IMG/VR virus record: IMGVR_UViG_3300020185_000165 | Coordinates: 1-31,618 of that record | DNA length: 31,618 nt | Reading direction: 5' to 3' (one strand) | Origin: a virus | Shown: positions 4,761 to 17,041 of the stretch, in pieces | Layout: each line of letters begins with the position of its first letter | Position numbering within the stretch: position 1 is the first letter of the stretch | Made by a program: the position numbers and the translations under genes | Notes under the pieces: generated by a model | Databases searched by the model: none | What the model saw: only the letters and a program-made list of their open reading frames with translations | What the model was told of the DNA's origin: nothing

Positions 4761-7700
4761 TTAACTAATTTGTGCTTTCTTTTGTTTTTCCCATACAGCA
4801 GTATCTAATATATAACTAGGTTTTAATTTATCAATTCCCGTAGCTTTTTTATTTGATACTGCATATTGTTTTTTACCATTTTTTCCGTCCTTTTTAATGT
4901 TTCCTGGACCAAAATATTTACTAGGAATTTTCTGGTATTTACCATGGAACTGACATTCCCAATGCCAAGTTTCATTTGTTGTACCATTATTAATTAAAGG
5001 AATCCTCATCCAACCTAAACCTGGTCCATTTTCTCTAAACCATGTGTGAACTTCAGCATATGTAGCAGGTTGTTGTAAATCTACTGCTACTCCTAATCCA
5101 TGTCTAGACTTACCCGGTGCGGCAGCATTAGGTCCGCCTGGGGTTGAAATAATAGATCTATAAGCTGAGTTGATTCTTAATTTACCATATCTTTCTAAAA
5201 ATGTTTTACCATTTGATGATACCGCAGTTTCATAAGCACTTAATAGATTTTTAAAATGAGGCATACAAGCATGATGTAATCTCATTCTTTTATTATCAGA
5301 ATTATTCTTCATTTCTAACCTAGCATATAGAGCAGCATCTGCTTCTACTAACATTCCTGGGTATTTATGTAAAAATCCATTTTCAACAGGTATAGAAGGG
5401 TCAGATTTTAATTTTGCGGCATTACCTGCCTTTTTATTTTTAGTAAATTCAGTTCCAGGATCAAAATTTGGATCAACTGCACCTGTACCTCCTGAATTTG
5501 CTTTTACTGCAGGAGCAGGGTTGAATTTAATAGATGGTGGTTTGTCTATGTTAGAGGTTGATAAAGTTTTTAAATTTGTTACCCACCCCTTATCGGTAAT
5601 TTTTTGTGAAATACCTGTAATTAAAAATTCCAGAGTAGCACTATATTGTTTAGGTAAAAAGGATTGTTGAATATCAATTCTATTAAACATTCTAAATCCA
5701 GATATACCATCTAAATCTAAATTAAATTCTACAGGGATAAAACCCGCGGCATTACTTGGTATACCTGTTTCCGAATAAAATTTACCATAGAATTTTTCTA
5801 AGTAATTTTTATAAACTCCTTTACCCATTTCTATATATTCATTATTGGTAGTTGGAAGATATTGGGCATTAGCTTTAGAAATGGTTGAAACTTGTAAATT
5901 TGCATTATTTTGTTGAGTATCTGTTATTGAAGGAGTTCCACCAAACATTTGAGAAAGATAAGCAGAATAGTTAACATTAACAATTTTTTTCAATCTTTCA
6001 AGTACTGCTTGATTTGCAGCATCTTGTGCATTAGTATCTGATTCTTTACTGTTTGCTGTTTCTGCAGGAGCCCCATAGGCTGATATTAATTTCTTTTCTA
6101 TAGGTTTACTAATTTGTTTTTTTAGGAAATTATTACTATAAATCCCAGCAGCAGTACTATAAGTGTGATCTTTTGATTCAAACCGTCCTACTTTTTCATT
6201 TCTTGATGTGAAAAACATTTGAACAGGATCTTGAATAACACCATTATGGTTTACTTTAAATCTAAATTCTGCCTCAGAATGGTATTGGATTTTTATATTT
6301 TTAGCATCTTTATGTATTTTTTTTGGTAATCCCTCATCTTTTGGAGTAACATAAAAATATCCACCACCACCTCTATTCTCTTTAAAAGGTACTTTTTCCT
6401 TATATACTACGGATAGAGGAAATTTAGAAGAATCTGCTAATAAAGTACCTGCTTCATTATTTAAAATCTTTTTTAAATTTGCATCTACTTCGGGATCAAG
6501 ATTAGTATTTCCTTCATAAGATAATTTACTACTTCCTGCTCCCCCACCAGAACCTCCACTATTTTCGGCAGTAGTATCAGTATCAGTTGTTTTTGTTGCT
6601 GTTGGAGTTGTTGTTGTTTCTGGGGTTGTAATAGTTTGTTGAAATCTATCAACTAACCCATTATTCCATTTTGAAAAGGCAGTTGCATCTTCCCCAACGG
6701 TAGTACCACTTGCTGTAGCCCCAATACTAATTTGGTTAGCTAACATTGGGGTTATTTTTGTATTAAATTTTATATTTTTTAAAAAATTAGATTCATTTTT
6801 TGATTTATTAAAACCAAATACTTGAAGTTCTAGATTTTTAGTTGACCTTACACCTGGTATTTTTGATAGGTTTTTTGAAAGACCTTGGGGTGGTTTTCTT
6901 TCTAAAAAAGTTACGATCTTATCATCTTTAATATAAGGTTCAATTTTTGTTGTATTTGCTAATGAACTATTTATACCATCACATATTTCTTGTAAGAATT
7001 TATATATAGATAAGTTTCCATCTTTATCATAGTTTTTTGATAATGATTCAAAAATATGAGCAATATTGATGTACATACTATATAACTTTAAAAATACCAT
7101 TGAACCCTCTTTAATTGAAGAATCACCCTTTAATTTACCCATATCATCTACCTTATAAGAGGGGGTATTAGGTTGTTGTGGTTTAAATATATTCCACGGT
7201 AAAACAGCATTCCCATTATCATCTATAGGAAAACTAGCACCTCCTTCTAAAGTAATAGTTTTTGTTTGTTGGTCGTATTTAGTTATTTTTTCTTTTGTAT
7301 TAGCTAAAGGGATAGGGTTGGTTACTGATACTGTTCCTAAATCAGATTTAGGGGTTGTTGTAGATTTTTTTCCTAATATAGCAAAAGCGGATATCATAGA
7401 TTTAGTATATTGAGGTACATATACATTATTAATATCTACTTGATTTAGAGTACCATCATCATATTTAAAAATACAAACCTTAGGGTTGAATGAAATCAAA
7501 TTAGGTGTATAATTCATTAAAGTAGTATCTTTAGCCCCTGCATCAAATACTAATTGTTTATCACTAGGGGATATATTAGGAATAATTTCTTTTTCAATTA
7601 CAGATATAAGTTCCCCAAAACTAACAAAATAATTATAATTTCTGTCTATTTTTTTATAATTATAGTCAGAATCTCTAAAGTTTACGGCTCCTGCTAAATT

Positions 7701-8678
7701 AAAGTAATTAGCATTATTTTTAAATAATTCTTTATTTTGTATACAATTATAAAAATATGCAGATAATCTATTGGAATTTTTATTTGCTAGTATTATGCTA
7801 TCTGAAGGTTCACCATAGGTTTCAATTTCTGTTTTAGTAGCGGCTGATGAATTTTCTCTTTGTGATTTTGTAGGTGGGATGTTTACTTTTAAAGCTTCTA
7901 TTACATCACCTAAAGAAATTAAATCTACTCTAATGTGGTAAGTTCCATCAGGTTTAAAATCCCAAGTAAAGTTTTTTACTCTTCCAAAAAACCCATCATA
8001 ATTCCCATTATAGGTTTGTTGCATTTCTTGGATTTTTTTCAGCATAGACATCTGGGAAGTGCTTTTTTCTTTGAAAAATTCTTTTTCAACCAAAGTGGAG
8101 CCTATTTTTTTAGGTTTTCCATCTTTATCTAAATAGCTATTCCACCCAAATTCTAACAATAAAGTAAAACCTAATCTAAGATATAATAATTCTATAAGTT
8201 CAAATTGGAATCTATTATAAGCAATAATATTTACAGTTGCATTACGTATTGCACCATTATTTTTAGATACTACATTTACATCTTTAATCCCAGGAGCGGG
8301 TTGGATTCCTTGTGCCGTTCCACCTAAACCATAAAGGTTATTATTCCATATTGAGGCATCCGTAGAAACACCAGATCTAAAGTTGTAAGTTTTATCATCA
8401 TTTAAAGAAGATAACCCATTAAATAATACTGATTTTTTTGCTAAGTTTAACCCTTTAAGGTTTTCACTAGATCCTATATTAAAAGGTAACCTGCTATCAT
8501 CTATAATTGAAACAGATGAAGCTAGTTTAACCCAAGTATTTCTATTATTAATATAGTGTAATTCTGTAGTAGTTTTTCTTTCAGTACCATCAATACCCTT
8601 ACCTAATATCTTTTGACGATTGGTTGCTTCTTCTTGTACAAAATCTAAAACAGATTCACCTAGTATATTTCCAGTCAT
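4761..8678 (-). CDS. Baseplate hub-like protein with C-terminal M15 peptidase domain
   Basis: 1305 residues, the largest gene. The N-terminal part (about 1-260) has a tail-hub look, with a hydrophobic LLYLRLGFTLLLEFGWNSYL and then VKNFTWDFKPDGTYHIRVDL. A Thr-rich and Gly/Ser-rich low-complexity linker follows at about residues 680-720. The C-terminus (about 1090-1265) is a D-Ala-D-Ala carboxypeptidase/endopeptidase of family M15 (VanY type): an INSAYRS strand, SRHGLGVAVDL with zinc ligands H1193 and D1200, and ETWHWE with catalytic base E1236 and ligand H1239. It probably cuts peptidoglycan cross-links at the tail tip during DNA entry, the job done by the gp5 lysozyme in T4. It sits 1 base after a LysM/gp53-like gene. 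The peptidase is well supported; calling the N-terminus gp27/gp5-like is inference. Confidence 0.8.
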   Translation of the reverse strand: MTGNILGESVLDFVQEEATNRQKILGKGIDGTERKTTTELHYINNRNTWVKLASSVSIIDDSRLPFNIGSSENLKGLNLAKKSVLFNGLSSLNDDKTYNFRSGVSTDASIWNNNLYGLGGTAQGIQPAPGIKDVNVVSKNNGAIRNATVNIIAYNRFQFELIELLYLRLGFTLLLEFGWNSYLDKDGKPKKIGSTLVEKEFFKEKSTSQMSMLKKIQEMQQTYNGNYDGFFGRVKNFTWDFKPDGTYHIRVDLISLGDVIEALKVNIPPTKSQRENSSAATKTEIETYGEPSDSIILANKNSNRLSAYFYNCIQNKELFKNNANYFNLAGAVNFRDSDYNYKKIDRNYNYFVSFGELISVIEKEIIPNISPSDKQLVFDAGAKDTTLMNYTPNLISFNPKVCIFKYDDGTLNQVDINNVYVPQYTKSMISAFAILGKKSTTTPKSDLGTVSVTNPIPLANTKEKITKYDQQTKTITLEGGASFPIDDNGNAVLPWNIFKPQQPNTPSYKVDDMGKLKGDSSIKEGSMVFLKLYSMYINIAHIFESLSKNYDKDGNLSIYKFLQEICDGINSSLANTTKIEPYIKDDKIVTFLERKPPQGLSKNLSKIPGVRSTKNLELQVFGFNKSKNESNFLKNIKFNTKITPMLANQISIGATASGTTVGEDATAFSKWNNGLVDRFQQTITTPETTTTPTATKTTDTDTTAENSGGSGGGAGSSKLSYEGNTNLDPEVDANLKKILNNEAGTLLADSSKFPLSVVYKEKVPFKENRGGGGYFYVTPKDEGLPKKIHKDAKNIKIQYHSEAEFRFKVNHNGVIQDPVQMFFTSRNEKVGRFESKDHTYSTAAGIYSNNFLKKQISKPIEKKLISAYGAPAETANSKESDTNAQDAANQAVLERLKKIVNVNYSAYLSQMFGGTPSITDTQQNNANLQVSTISKANAQYLPTTNNEYIEMGKGVYKNYLEKFYGKFYSETGIPSNAAGFIPVEFNLDLDGISGFRMFNRIDIQQSFLPKQYSATLEFLITGISQKITDKGWVTNLKTLSTSNIDKPPSIKFNPAPAVKANSGGTGAVDPNFDPGTEFTKNKKAGNAAKLKSDPSIPVENGFLHKYPGMLVEADAALYARLEMKNNSDNKRMRLHHACMPHFKNLLSAYETAVSSNGKTFLERYGKLRINSAYRSIISTPGGPNAAAPGKSRHGLGVAVDLQQPATYAEVHTWFRENGPGLGWMRIPLINNGTTNETWHWECQFHGKYQKIPSKYFGPGNIKKDGKNGKKQYAVSNKKATGIDKLKPSYILDTAVWEKQKKAQIS

Positions 8679-10964: not shown

Positions 10965-13337
10965 TTATGCTGATATTTCATAGTTGTTTAATGAGATAGC
11001 CGTTCCTAATTCTTCGGAATCCATAGTTATTTGTGCATTAGAATTTAAAATTTGGTTTAATATAGCATTTGTTTGTGCTAAACTATTTTCCATAATAGAT
11101 AAATCCATGGATACTCCTCCGTTAGATGAAGCCTTTTCTTTAAATAAATCTGTACCTGCAATTATATCGTCATTATTATTTAATTTTATTGCCCCTTCAG
11201 GTCCTAATATGGTTCTACTTCCATATCCACCCCCACCAGTTGCAGGACTAAATATATCATCTGCACTTTCAGAATCACTTACCAAACTACTAATTGCTAA
11301 GTAAGCGGCAGCCGCCGCTGCGATACCAAGACCAACACCCACTAAAGGGACTGGTGTTTTAGCAGCATTTGCACCCGCTTGAGCTGAGTAGTCAACTGCA
11401 CCCATTAAAGCTGCTCCTTTTTCAGAAATTGCTTTTCTTTTAGATAAAAATAACCCAATTTTTGCTGCAGCGTTGTATGCTTTTACCCCTACAACTCCGG
11501 CAATAATTAAAGCTTTATTTTCAGCGGCAAATTTTACAATCGCTGCCATTGTTTTCATGGCGGGTTGGAGGCTTTTTCCTAATTCTAAAAATACTTGATT
11601 CATATCTGCGGCTGCCTGTTTCATTTCTGTTTGTTTATCAGCCTGTGCCTGAAGATCTTCAAAATTAGTATCAGCCATTATTTTTTGGGCTTCTTTTAAT
11701 CCATTTTCTTCAATTAATTTATCTAATAATTCTTGTCTTTTTTCTGCTTCATCTCCTGTTGTATTTTTCAACATTTCTTGGGTAAATAGAGTTTGTGCTA
11801 GTTCTTCTCTACCCATCCCAACAGCTTCAGCTAATGCCTGCTGTTCTAATCTATTCATTTTAGCAAAATCAGCAGAAGAACCCGCTTGTTTAGCTATTTC
11901 TTCAGCTACTGTTGCAAAATCATTTTGTAAAGCCGCAGATCTTGCTTTTTCTAAGTTAAGTTCTTTACCTAACATTAGTTCAGCCTGCATTTCTTTTTCT
12001 ATAGAAGACTCAAAATTAAGTAAACTTTCTGCAATTTTATCTACTTGGGACATTTCCATCCCTAAAGATTGGACTATACCTACGGTCTTACCCATAGTAG
12101 CAGCATTAGCACCCATAGATAAGGTCATAGCAGCATTTATTTTGCCCATTTCAGCCATTAACTTTTTCTCGTTAAGGGCTACTTTATTTTTTAAAGATCC
12201 TAATCTTGCCTGGGCCATAAATTCCCCAGTATTTTTCTTAAGGTCTTTACCATTTACTGATGTTAATTTAGTAATACCTGCTAACTCCTCAGCAGTCATT
12301 CCTGCTAAAACTTGCATTTCTGCATATGAAGTTAACATTTCATCAGATAATATAACATTAGTACCTAATGTTTTATTTATATCTACATTAGCATGTTTAA
12401 TATCATTATAAGAAGTTAAAACTGTACCTTGGATTTTACTAATCCTCATGAATTCAGCACTTGTCTTTTTAGCCTCAGTATATGTCTGGTTCATTCCCTT
12501 AGCTATATCACCTGTGGATTTATCCATTTTTAACATAGATTGTACAATCTTAGTTATAATGGCTATAGTACCAAAAGCTTTCATCATTTCACCAACACCC
12601 GCAGTTAACCCTTTAAGGCCTGCTGTTGCTTTTTGGAACATATTTAATTTAGAAACTTTTCCTGTTTTTTCATCTATAACAACCATTTCGGCGGCTGCCT
12701 TTTTAGATGCTTCTGCTGCTTTATCAAACCCTTTAGTTAAATCCTTTACAGCAGGAATTGCACCAGCGATTGTGGATAGGGAACCAAATAATTTTACTGA
12801 TCCTAGTTTTGAGAGTTGTTTTGATACTACTACTTGAGAATCAAGTGTTTCTTTTACTTCTTTTTGGTTATCTATTTGGTCTGTTACTGCTCTTGCTAAT
12901 TTTAAAGTATTTGAATAAGCTTCTTTTGCTGCTTTTTTCTCTTCTTCACTAGCATTTGCTGAAATTGAAGCAAAGTCTTGTTTTTGTTGTTTAGCTTTTC
13001 GTATTAAATCAGATTTATTACTTTCTAAACTTAAAATATTTTTAGCTAAATCCTGTTCTTGTTTTAGGATTTTATTAGTATCTAACAGGGCGTCTCTTGT
13101 TCTACCTGCAATACTTGCTTGAAATTCAGCTGCTTTATTTATTCCGTCTAAAGCAGATCTAACTGATTTTTTTAGGTCTTTTTCTTGTTTTTGAAGTTTT
13201 AACCCCTCACGGATCTCATTATTAATGTCCCGTGTAATTCTAAGATTTTCATTCTGCTCATAGGATAAACCCTTAGTAGCAGAAATTTGCTCTTCAGTTG
13301 CTTTCGTGGATTTTTTTATTTCTTCAGAATCAGACAT
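10965..13337 (-). CDS. Tail tape measure protein
   Basis: 790 residues. The N-terminal 230 are long charged helices (coiled coil). The middle contains Ala/Met-rich helices and a hydrophobic stretch near 255-268 (MKAFGTIAIITKIVQSML). Two more hydrophobic segments follow at about 625-645 (NKALIIAGVVGVKAY) and 680-700 (VGVGLGIAAAAAAYLAISSL). The C-terminus carries GPEGAIKLNNNDDIIAGTDL, a motif common near the end of tape measure proteins. These proteins set tail length and exit before DNA during injection. By the usual 0.15 nm per residue the tail would be near 118 nm. It follows a gp26-family gene and an 83-residue ORF, the position of the G/GT chaperones in other phages. A strong terminator and a late element precede the ATG, so it probably has its own transcript start. 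Confidence 0.88.
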   Translation of the reverse strand: MSDSEEIKKSTKATEEQISATKGLSYEQNENLRITRDINNEIREGLKLQKQEKDLKKSVRSALDGINKAAEFQASIAGRTRDALLDTNKILKQEQDLAKNILSLESNKSDLIRKAKQQKQDFASISANASEEEKKAAKEAYSNTLKLARAVTDQIDNQKEVKETLDSQVVVSKQLSKLGSVKLFGSLSTIAGAIPAVKDLTKGFDKAAEASKKAAAEMVVIDEKTGKVSKLNMFQKATAGLKGLTAGVGEMMKAFGTIAIITKIVQSMLKMDKSTGDIAKGMNQTYTEAKKTSAEFMRISKIQGTVLTSYNDIKHANVDINKTLGTNVILSDEMLTSYAEMQVLAGMTAEELAGITKLTSVNGKDLKKNTGEFMAQARLGSLKNKVALNEKKLMAEMGKINAAMTLSMGANAATMGKTVGIVQSLGMEMSQVDKIAESLLNFESSIEKEMQAELMLGKELNLEKARSAALQNDFATVAEEIAKQAGSSADFAKMNRLEQQALAEAVGMGREELAQTLFTQEMLKNTTGDEAEKRQELLDKLIEENGLKEAQKIMADTNFEDLQAQADKQTEMKQAAADMNQVFLELGKSLQPAMKTMAAIVKFAAENKALIIAGVVGVKAYNAAAKIGLFLSKRKAISEKGAALMGAVDYSAQAGANAAKTPVPLVGVGLGIAAAAAAYLAISSLVSDSESADDIFSPATGGGGYGSRTILGPEGAIKLNNNDDIIAGTDLFKEKASSNGGVSMDLSIMENSLAQTNAILNQILNSNAQITMDSEELGTAISLNNYEISA

Positions 13338-13363: not shown

Positions 13364-13392
13364 AAAAAGAGCAACTATTTGTAGCTGCTCTT
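13364..13392 (-). terminator. Rho-independent terminator overlapping the 83-residue ORF stop
   Basis: The sense strand forms AAGAGCAGCTA-CAAA-TAGTTGCTCTT, an 11-bp stem with one G-T wobble and a 4-base loop, followed by TTTTAAT. The stem includes the end of the 83-residue ORF with its TAG stop. It separates the tube/gp26 transcript from the tape measure gene. Confidence 0.8.
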
Positions 13393-13626
13393 TCCTTTAT
13401 AAGGTTTAGATGCCTTTAAGAATTCTGGAGTATTTACTTGACCTTTTGAGTCTATTAGAGTTGATTGGCCTTGTTCATTAGAAGGTTTTGATTCTTCTTT
13501 ATAATATTTTTCCATTCTTGAATAGGTAAATTTTCTTAACCAAATAGGCATATTATAAACAGTTGGGAAATCATAACCTCCCTTACCTAAGAATAATATT
13601 TCGTGGATTTGGGTAAATAACCCCAT
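13375..13626 (-). CDS. 83-residue ORF, candidate frameshift-expressed tail chaperone extension
   Basis: The ORF has an ATG at 13626-13624. It reads MGLFTQIHEILFLGKGGYDF, then VYNMPIWLRKFTYSRMEKYY, then a Ser/Lys-rich tail. The helical, basic, tryptophan-containing core looks like a small conserved domain. No Shine-Dalgarno sequence precedes the ATG. The same frame stays open upstream through the end of the gp26-like gene (GLTSDIAQEIR precedes the Met), and a run of seven T's in the mRNA at 13666-13660 could allow a +1 or -2 shift into it. The fusion would be about 331 residues. The placement directly before the tape measure matches the T half of G/GT chaperones. Independent translation from the ATG is the alternative. 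Confidence 0.75.
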   Translation of the reverse strand: MGLFTQIHEILFLGKGGYDFPTVYNMPIWLRKFTYSRMEKYYKEESKPSNEQGQSTLIDSKGQVNTPEFLKASKPYKGKSSYK

Positions 13627-13645
13627 CCTAATTTCTTGTGCTATA

Positions 13646-14371
13646 TCAGAAGTCAGGCCAAAAAAACGTAAGACCCAAAGGGATCTCTACCTCCTCTCCA
13701 TTGTCTAATATATAAGACATATCCACATCGGGTTGTTGTTGCTTAATGTGCTCACGTAAAGCTCTTGAATCTCTAGCTAATAAATAATTATCTACAAATT
13801 CTCTAATGGTTTTTTTATCACTATCTCCATCTACTGAAGTAATAGTATACTTTAATCTAGTTGTTAAAGTTGGTGTATGATCTTTATTTATTTTTGCTAA
13901 TCCCTTTAGTTCAGCTTCTATTTTAGCTTCTTCATGACCATCTAACATTTTATATGTTATTAAGTTTGAACTATTAGGTAAGGTAAAAGAAAATTCATTT
14001 TTGCCCTCTATTAAATCAGAACCATCAAATGGTTTATTTTCTAGTTGGGTTAAATCTACACTTTGTTCTTCACCATTAATATTTACTTTATAAGTAGCAC
14101 CATACCCTAAAATTCGTGCCGCAATAAGAATTGCATTTTTATCTCCTATTAAAAGGTCTTTAAGTTTTACTTTAGTAACAATAACGGATTCAAGTAATTT
14201 ATCTAATACTATACCTTTTTGTATATAAGATTGGTTTGATAAAATATCTTCTTCTTTAGCAGTCATATATTTTATTTCTATTTTACCACTTCTTAGTGGA
14301 TGCCCTTCAGGGTATAATAATCCTTTAGTGGGTAATTCAACTTCTTCAGTTGGGAATTTAAATTCGGCCAT
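13646..14371 (-). CDS. 26: gp26-family baseplate hub / tail assembly protein
   Basis: 241 residues with the N-terminal signature of the T4 gp26 baseplate family: LPTKGLLYPEGHPLRSGKIE, then IKYMTAKEEDILSNQSYIQK and GIVLDKLLESVI (about 13-64). The C-terminus ends GLTFFWPDF. T4 gp26 (208 residues) is assigned to baseplate hub assembly. In many phages a homologous gene lies directly before the tape measure and may act as a tail assembly chaperone. Here it lies between the tube gene and the tape measure. A strong terminator and a late element precede it. The TTT TTT TGG codons for FFW form a possible slippery site into the 83-residue ORF. Family membership is strong; the precise function is not settled by sequence. 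Confidence 0.82.
   Translation of the reverse strand: MAEFKFPTEEVELPTKGLLYPEGHPLRSGKIEIKYMTAKEEDILSNQSYIQKGIVLDKLLESVIVTKVKLKDLLIGDKNAILIAARILGYGATYKVNINGEEQSVDLTQLENKPFDGSDLIEGKNEFSFTLPNSSNLITYKMLDGHEEAKIEAELKGLAKINKDHTPTLTTRLKYTITSVDGDSDKKTIREFVDNYLLARDSRALREHIKQQQPDVDMSYILDNGEEVEIPLGLTFFWPDF
13660..13666 (-). other. Candidate programmed frameshift site (run of seven T's)
   Basis: Near the 3' end of the gp26-like gene the mRNA-sense sequence is ACG TTT TTT TGG CCT GAC TTC TGA. A +1 (or -2) shift on the T-run gives GGC CTG ACT TCT GAT and joins the open frame that becomes the 83-residue ORF. Tail assembly chaperone genes before tape measures commonly use such shifts, including -2 in phage Mu. 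The alternative is a homopolymer length error in the assembly. Confidence 0.5.
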
Positions 14372-15016: not shown

Positions 15017-17041
15017 TTATACCGGAAATGTAGCTCCTGTTGGTAATACATTGAAATCTAAAACAATAAATTCAGCTGTTTTCGATGGTTGTAAATAGAT
15101 TTGACCTATTAATTGGTTTCTATCGATTACATCTGGTGTATTATTTGTATCATCCATTACTACTTTAAAAGCATACAAACCTTGTCTTTGTTGTACTGAT
15201 TCTAAGTATGGGTTAACTTGTGTTAAGAAGTTATTTCTAGTTGCTATGGTATTTTGATCAAATACCAATGTGTTAGAAACTTGTGAAATATAGCTTTTAA
15301 GAGCAATTAGTAATCTTCTTACATTTACACGATCTAAAGCACTTGCTTTTTTCTGTAATGTTTTCTGACCAAATACTACAACTCCACTTTGTGGGAAGGT
15401 AGCTATTGGGTTTACATTTGCTTCATATAAAGTATCTCTATTTCCAGAAGTTAATTTTCTTTCAGCTTTTATTACTTGACCTAATCCACCTCTAGTTAAA
15501 CCTGCTGGTGCGAACCATGGGTCTGAAGATGCGTCAGTATAAGCAAAAACTCCAGGGATCAATGTAGATGGTGGAGCCCAAACTGTTTTACCAGTATCTG
15601 CGTCAAGTAACTGTAACCATGGCCAGTAAGTGGCAGCATATGAACTATCAAATCCACTTGCTTGGTTAGTAACACCACCTATAAGTGAGTTATATGCTCT
15701 TAAATCTACTACTGCTAAACAATCTTGTCGTTTTTCAGCAGTTGTAATTAATAAGTTAACTGCTGATGGGTGTAATTGATGAATTAACCCTGGTGCTGAT
15801 AATATATTAAACTGGTAGTTATCCTTATTACTTAATAAATTAATTACTGCCGTATAATCGTCTGCTGTTACACCTTGAGTATTATTAGCTGTAATGGTTT
15901 CGTTAAATTTAGCTGGAACTCCTCCTCCAAATAAATCTCCTTGACCTCCACTAAATGTTCCTTCTCCTACACTTGGTAAACTCGATGTGTATTGAGTTTT
16001 TGCTGTACCTGTATTATCGAAATAATTTGGTGTAGGTGAATTTACAGCCGACACATAAACATATCTACTTTTATTAGTATAGTTACCATTTTCAGTTAGG
16101 TAATAATCTCCATTGTCATCAACAATTTGACCATAATAGCTATTACCAATTACATTTTCTATGTAATTAGAAGATAATGGATCTAAAGATACATTAGAAA
16201 ATGTTTCTAATACCGTCTTTTGGTTAGTTTTATCATCTCCACGACGTATAGCCACACTAAACACTCCAGATGAAGTATTAGCATTTGTTATTTCCCATCT
16301 TATATTATCAGGGGTTCCATTTTCTAAAGCACCTCCTGATAAAGTTGATCCTGTACTGTTTAATATTTCTCCTTTAGATATAGTACTTAAAACAAATGGG
16401 GTCTGAGATTCTAAGTTATCATTACCAATCTCAATTCTTAAATCAACACCTACTCCTCCTGGGAAGGCATTTGATCCCAATGAAGCTGTTGAAAATACAA
16501 TTATATCTCCGCTTTCATATCCTGTTCCTCCTCTTATCTCAAAAACATTCATACTTTGTGAAGTATTAAAACTTGCTGTAAGTTGTGTTTTTCCATCTAC
16601 AGATAATACTCTACGAGTACTAGTTGGACCATTTGCTAATGATGAAGTAATATTAAAAGAATTAATTGTAAAACTAGATGTAGTACTAGAAGTAGCTAAA
16701 TCTCCGTTTACATTTCCATTAAAAAGATTTGTTGATTCTGCACTGCTCCAATCTGTTGAAGATGAAACTATACGAGTTACAAGTAATGAATTTCCTCCTT
16801 GATTGAAGTAATTATTTGCCGCCGTTTGGTTTAAATAAGAATATTGTTGTGAACCACTAGTTACAGCTCCTCCAAATATTGCTAAATATTCGCTATAAGA
16901 AGTAACTACAGTAGGTACTTCAACAGGACCCTTGATAGAAGGACCGATAAGTGCCGCTCCTACTTCTACAGGACCTTGAGTTATTTGAGATTGATCATTT
17001 TCTCTTGCTAGTACTCCGGGAGATATTAATGTTTCTGCCAT
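15017..17041 (-). CDS. 18: Contractile tail sheath protein, gp18-like
   Basis: 674 residues (T4 gp18 is 659). The N-terminus reads MAETLISPGVLARENDQSQI, then VGAALIGPSIKGPVEVPTVV, the typical opening of sheath proteins (SPGV-x-x-x-E-D...GP-x-x-G P). The C-terminal third contains VDLRAYNSLIGG, WLQLLDADTGKTVWAPPST, WFAPAGLTRGGL and DRVNVRRLLIALKSYISQ, ending near NVLPTGATFPV. These are the conserved core and C-terminal donor-strand region that links subunits. The sheath contracts to drive the tube through the envelope. The middle 230 residues (about 120-350) are Ser/Thr/Asn-rich and probably form surface-exposed outer domains. It has its own late element 23 bases upstream, and the tube gene follows. 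Confidence 0.95.
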   Translation of the reverse strand: MAETLISPGVLARENDQSQITQGPVEVGAALIGPSIKGPVEVPTVVTSYSEYLAIFGGAVTSGSQQYSYLNQTAANNYFNQGGNSLLVTRIVSSSTDWSSAESTNLFNGNVNGDLATSSTTSSFTINSFNITSSLANGPTSTRRVLSVDGKTQLTASFNTSQSMNVFEIRGGTGYESGDIIVFSTASLGSNAFPGGVGVDLRIEIGNDNLESQTPFVLSTISKGEILNSTGSTLSGGALENGTPDNIRWEITNANTSSGVFSVAIRRGDDKTNQKTVLETFSNVSLDPLSSNYIENVIGNSYYGQIVDDNGDYYLTENGNYTNKSRYVYVSAVNSPTPNYFDNTGTAKTQYTSSLPSVGEGTFSGGQGDLFGGGVPAKFNETITANNTQGVTADDYTAVINLLSNKDNYQFNILSAPGLIHQLHPSAVNLLITTAEKRQDCLAVVDLRAYNSLIGGVTNQASGFDSSYAATYWPWLQLLDADTGKTVWAPPSTLIPGVFAYTDASSDPWFAPAGLTRGGLGQVIKAERKLTSGNRDTLYEANVNPIATFPQSGVVVFGQKTLQKKASALDRVNVRRLLIALKSYISQVSNTLVFDQNTIATRNNFLTQVNPYLESVQQRQGLYAFKVVMDDTNNTPDVIDRNQLIGQIYLQPSKTAEFIVLDFNVLPTGATFPV

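Follow-up and report, generated by a model that had tools for sequence, protein, structure and literature searches.

The DNA immediately before the tape measure gene in IMG/VR virus record IMGVR_UViG_3300020185_000165 raises the question of whether a gp26-like gene gives rise to one protein or to two. The window is the whole stretch analyzed here (31,618 nucleotides, positions 1 to 31,618 of the record), and terminase, portal, major head protein, sheath and UvsX-like recombinase genes of the T4 superfamily are present elsewhere within it. The gp26-like ORF ends ACG TTT TTT TGG CCT GAC TTC TGA (encoding ...T F F W P D F stop). The +1 frame is already open ahead of the seven T's and continues as GGC CTG ACT TCT GAT ATA GCA... 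as far as a stop at 13375. The +1 reading places the residues GLTSDIAQEIR ahead of the ATG of an 83-codon ORF, and the segment TGG CCT GAC is dual-coded, being read as GGC CTG AC in the +1 frame. A fusion across this junction would be 331 aa long by a +1 shift and 332 aa long by a -2 shift. The original prediction, made from the window alone, described the gp26-like end, the T-run, the open +1 frame, the GLTSDIAQEIR segment and the 83-residue ORF, and its coordinates, residues and lengths are all confirmed. The features of the locus are as follows.

13646–14371, minus strand: gp26-like gene, short form (G), 241 aa, ending FFWPDF; matches PHROG_150 (baseplate hub, E 2e-7)
13660–13666, minus strand: proposed slip site, a run of seven T's (TTT TTT T) kept in frame at 81/81 loci
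13661–13663, minus strand: proposed P-site codon, the second TTT of the slip run
13652–13660, minus strand: TGG CCT GAC, comprising TGG, proposed as a slow codon in the A site, and the dual-coded stretch
13646–13648, minus strand: zero-frame stop TGA, bypassed under the proposed shift
13375–13659, minus strand: +1-frame T extension (94 codons and a stop), open in 78/78 complete loci
13375–13626, minus strand: 83-codon ORF inside the T extension
13689–13699, minus strand: Shine-Dalgarno-like GGAGAGGAGGT inside the gp26-like gene; core GGAGG at 13690–13694, in 44/44 representatives
10965–13337, minus strand: tape measure gene, 790 aa, directly downstream, similar to the annotated tape measure of phage immuto
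14486–14974, minus strand: tail tube gene, upstream (context); PHROG_4542 tail tube, E 6e-23
15017–17041, minus strand: tail sheath gene, upstream (context); Pfam sheath families and PHROG_23, E 2e-78

The gene order tube, G, T, tape measure is like that of lambda-like phages. The tape measure assignment is based on similarity to the protein annotated as tape measure in Flavobacterium phage immuto (30% identity over 427 columns, E 2e-35). Further downstream, a tape measure PHROG also weakly matches a 1305-residue ORF (4761–8678, minus strand; E 1e-5), which is additional to the real tape measure at 10965–13337.

We propose that in this phage of Flavobacterium-like hosts a single gene very probably yields two forms of a helper protein for tail building by means of a +1 shift. 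Most ribosomes would reach the TGA and produce G. In a minority, tRNA-Phe would occupy the second TTT in the P site with TGG, the single codon for tryptophan, in the A site; the tRNA would then slip one base forward and re-pair on the overlapping TTT, and reading would resume at GGC CTG AC... to give the extended form, GT. By analogy with lambda, the tape measure protein would be covered by many copies of G and a few of GT, with the T part recruiting the tube protein.

Short open overlaps are common to several neighbouring gene pairs within the window, so an open overlap by itself is not unusual and it is conservation that carries the case. Scanning IMG/VR identified 80 relatives at 63–99% identity, giving 81 loci with the window, and codon statistics were calculated over 238 columns for 45 representatives below 95% protein identity. 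All 81 loci carry the run TTTTTTTG in frame close to the 3' end of the gene, and no stop interrupts the +1 frame in any of the 78 whose extension is complete. The codons TTT TTT TGG CCT are present in 45/45 representatives and the following GAC in 44/45; among the 238 columns, codon identity exceeds synonymous expectation most strongly at CCT (45 representatives, shared descent ignored). Phenylalanine codons elsewhere in the gene are TTT 271 times and TTC 61 times among the representatives (shared descent ignored). The base ahead of the T-run is C or G in 44/45 representatives (again ignoring shared descent) and is G in the window; in Asn, Ser, Thr and Gly codons elsewhere in the gene, the third base is most often T (1459 of 2537). 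The freezing of CCT GAC is attributable in part to dual coding, since these bases encode GLT in the +1 frame, and this dual coding itself indicates that both frames are read. It does not account for the freezing of TTT TTT or of the base ahead of the run. An alignment of relatives was what the original prediction had looked to for support, and the conserved T-run, the open +1 frame and the synonymous constraint at TTT TTT TGG CCT GAC all agree with its proposed fusion and 241/331-residue pair.

Single-base errors in homopolymers are common and the window is a metagenomic contig, so that the arrangement might be an error of sequencing or assembly, or else a pseudogene in decay. The same seven T's and open frame recur in 80 other contigs, the identical run in the independent contigs L002–L004 speaks against an assembly error, and comparable arrangements are found in the cultured phages immuto, Mel-JY01 and RM378; we regard an artefact or pseudogene as scarcely credible.

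Without any shift, the downstream ORF would be a separate gene with its own start, translated by re-initiation after the overlapping stop. There is an ATG in the +1 frame in the window and other close relatives (6/44 representatives), and in the window it could start the 83-residue protein. However, 36 of the 44 have no ATG, GTG or TTG in that frame ahead of the core that is conserved in the extension, and the +1 residues in this start-less upstream part are conserved (G 44/44, L 44/44, A 38/44 and R 44/44), as are the slip codons. The second ORF is thus one that overlaps G in another frame and is open across the first stop, with no conserved start of its own. In two relatives, L105 (3214–3531) and L109 (3214–3501), T is a free-standing gene with its own ATG right after the gp26 stop, and carries about 20 extra N-terminal residues. 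Separation of the two genes had been named at the outset as a refuting case; it does occur, but only in these two, which in a tree of 46 G proteins are sisters of immuto nested inside the shifting group, and the split therefore looks derived. We consider a separate T gene in the window extremely unlikely.

The direction of the shift had been left as +1 or -2, and the T-run in the window is compatible with either re-pairing. A -2 ribosomal shift as in Mu would move tRNA-Phe back two bases within the run and add one extra phenylalanine (332 aa); re-pairing would be perfect in window-type genes, and Mu provides a precedent in this gene class (PMC5009743). The discriminating sites are in relatives rather than in the window itself. 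Phage immuto has TTT CTT TGG, and the L094–L108 group (except L105) and L225 have TTC TTT TGG, with the +1 frame likewise open in both types. Where TTT follows TTC, a Phe tRNA on the TTT can re-pair at +1 and not at -2, and several relatives therefore speak against -2; re-pairing at -2 is poor at both TTC TTT TGG and CTT TGG although the frame relation is the same. These homologous sites make a +1 shift far likelier than -2, so that the +1 half of the earlier alternative is favoured and the -2 half, which we consider unlikely for the window, recedes. L218 has TTT TTC where others have TTT TGG, indicating that TGG is usual but not essential.

The same relatives bear on slippage by RNA polymerase, in which some mRNAs would be one U short and normal ribosomes would read the fusion. 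Retention of a seven-base homopolymer throughout the window group is consistent with this, but the relatives with just four or three T's keep the +1 frame open, which makes slippage of the polymerase unlikely, and a T ahead of the run, which would lengthen it and be neutral for the amino acid, is avoided in 44/45 representatives. We view polymerase slippage in the window as very unlikely.

A -1 slip in the window group would read TTG GCC TGA and meet a stop two codons on. The heptamer in the window is G_TTT_TTT, the C or G ahead of the run abolishes T_TTT_TTT in the group, and the window site lacks the canonical -1 signal X_XXY_YYZ with an open -1 frame. A C or G in this position together with an early -1 stop is as expected if -1 slipping were avoided. 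The base ahead of the run is T in 79/79 cyanophage relatives, which use -1. Taking these observations together, we think it highly likely that the gene yields two tail-assembly chaperone forms, G (241 aa) and GT (331 aa), by a +1 shift.

The +1 frameshift site of RF2 (prfB) is CUU_UGA_C, with a Shine-Dalgarno sequence 3 nt upstream. The window site shares with it a pyrimidine-U-U codon in the P site followed by U, and UG(A/G) in the A site followed by C; the immuto site, CUU_UGG_C, is one base from that of RF2. The window differs in having a sense Trp codon rather than a stop in the A site, and a GGAGG that is 26 nt away instead of 3 nt. In three Firmicutes relatives, L085, L087 and L088 (SP-15, GXN1 and LIS04), the sequence NCC CGA TTY lies near the gp26 end with the +1 frame open; on the basis of these three phages it is tentatively a different +1 site at the CGA codon. 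LR756508 has no clear slip site.

The GGAGG core ends 26 nt ahead of the codon proposed for the P site. It is retained even where the encoded amino acids change, and is invariant in 44/44 representatives although Glu codons otherwise prefer GAA over GAG. It is missing from several more distant shifting relatives and is therefore clade-specific, and it sits too far upstream for a classical stimulator role. Shine-Dalgarno-like sequences are thought to be little used for initiation in Bacteroidota-like hosts. RNAalifold identified no conserved downstream structure in either the window-type or the cyanophage-type group; mean downstream folding z values are -0.4 and -1.7 respectively (mononucleotide shuffles, small samples), and of the two only the cyanophage type may have a downstream structure. 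Cyanophage-type sites (L122–L201) have GA(A/G)GG about 10 nt before T_TTT_TTC, the classical place for a bacterial -1 stimulator.

The window G is linked to T4 through PHROG_150, which also contains T4 gp26 and the N-terminal part of gp51 (E 7e-71 and 3e-84). At the Pfam cut-off the window and immuto proteins have no match to PF12322, which does match the linking homologues LR756508 and RM378. Cyanophage S-SM1 has a gp26 gene ending NNT TTT TTC, as do 79/79 of the relatives tested, and the -1 frame is open from the gp26 end into an ORF annotated as gp51. RaK2, PA5oct, Vibrio 2.275.O, XacN1, Atu_ph07 and LR756511 have T_TTT_TTY with the -1 frame open. The cyanophages and most of the jumbo phages examined are thus predicted to decode a long form by a -1 shift at T_TTT_TTY. 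The small cyanophage ORF annotated as gp51 (L114:3573–3755 and similar records) corresponds to the -1-frame extension of gp26; it is probably not an independent gene, and its annotated start is probably unused.

The C-terminal part of T4 gp51 (E 1e-23) and cyanophage T (E 1e-29) both match phrog_634, and profile alignment joins these two directly (E 3e-7). Window-type T aligns with cyanophage T (E 2e-4) and weakly with the gp51 C-terminus (E 0.03), so that its link to gp51 runs via cyanophage T. From the shared phrog_634 and the profile alignments, T4 gp51 looks like an in-frame G plus T, and T4 gp26 like G alone. In the tree of 46 G proteins, the six gp26/gp51 rows from Straboviridae cluster together (98/86) and adjoin the cyanophages (100/99). 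The +1 TTT_TGG phages are mostly together, with RM378 unplaced on a long branch, and the -1 phages fall at two places plus LR756511. With no fixed root in this tree, the order of change is our inference; the simplest readings would be that the gene was duplicated in the T4 line and that the split in L105 and L109 is derived. Scans with the RM378 and SP-15 proteins returned self-matches only.

AlphaFold models were made separately of the window G (pLDDT 89) and a T4-type gp51 (84.5). Against BFVD the G model matches chiefly T4-like hub assembly proteins. Against the PDB, VIA-align gives YqbN (Z 5.8) and the HK97 tail assembly chaperone (Z 5.1), both over residues 1–95 only and below the caution level of Z 8, with unrelated rows at 2.4 or less; Foldseek alone gives E of about 1. 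YqbN and HK97 gp13 are tail chaperone structures (PMC9603447), and the modest resemblance of the G model to these two is suggestive. The third PDB row (5ir0, Z 3.8) is ORF19, a protein of unknown function from a Vibrio cholerae phage-satellite-like element, and may mimic a tail chaperone. No PDB entry matches the gp51 model significantly, and a search by sequence found no solved structure related to gp51. T4 gp26 and gp51 are listed as hub assembly chaperones, and gp51 is essential and absent from the particle (PMC3004832).

Comparison shows a conserved slip site, an open +1 frame under selection, a position before the tape measure gene and a G homologous to the T4 gp26/gp51 family, and the reading of the locus as a frameshift, with the G plus T of a tail-assembly chaperone as its long product, is strongly supported. 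From the same comparison we infer the occurrence of the shift, its +1 direction, its rate, the slow-codon role of TGG and the binding partners of G and T.

Conservation of G–T shifting is wide among long-tailed phages, T4 being the exception, and the known directions are -1, -2 and +1; lambda G/GT uses -1, Mu -2 and HSTV-2 probably +1 (2016 review, PMC5009743). The window shares with these three a pair right before the tape measure gene, with short and frameshift-extended forms from overlapping ORFs. It differs from lambda in a shift that is most likely +1 at TTT_TGG and in a G of the T4 gp26/gp51 family, for which no sequence similarity to lambda G is shown. The tail chaperone genes of T4-like phages were identified by Vladimirov, Gautam and Davidson in 2022 (according to PMC9603447, PMC12846349 and PMC10274946), in a paper whose title proposes a non-frameshifting mechanism. 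Our comparison upholds the suggestion that the gp26 family is a G/GT-type chaperone; for T4-like phages the family's tail chaperone role had been published before. In T4 there are two separate genes, one short and one long, whereas the window phage has one shifting locus; 0305phi8-36 gp143/gp144 is likewise a two-gene chaperone (PMC2147016), with short and long forms from duplicated genes and no frameshift, as in T4. The cyanophage gp26 and gp51-annotated ORF and the jumbo phages RaK2, PA5oct and Atu_ph07 share the family, layout and overlapping-frame extension of the window, but have the canonical -1 heptamer T_TTT_TTY in place of a +1 site. The chaperone identity and the T4 two-gene form are therefore already known, and the -1 form probably is. 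The +1 form and a change of direction within one family provisionally appear to be new; no report of either was found in a search limited to open-access papers, in which Vladimirov et al. 2022 is represented through papers that cite it. A broader reading, which we offer tentatively and think somewhat doubtful, is that shift direction has flipped between -1 and +1 within one chaperone family, with opposite selection on the base ahead of the run, and that the GGAGG about 26 nt upstream is a new kind of +1 stimulator in the window clade, whose phages have Bacteroidota-like hosts.

For annotation, many ORFs that follow gp26 and are labelled 'hypothetical protein' or 'gp51' are probably chaperone extensions. 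The naturally varied +1 sites UUU_UGG, CUU_UGG and UUU_UUC provide material on what moves a ribosome forward. The +1 relatives of T4, beside the -1 cyanophages and jumbo phages and the two-gene T4, would form a natural series in which recoding has been gained, reversed and replaced by duplication.
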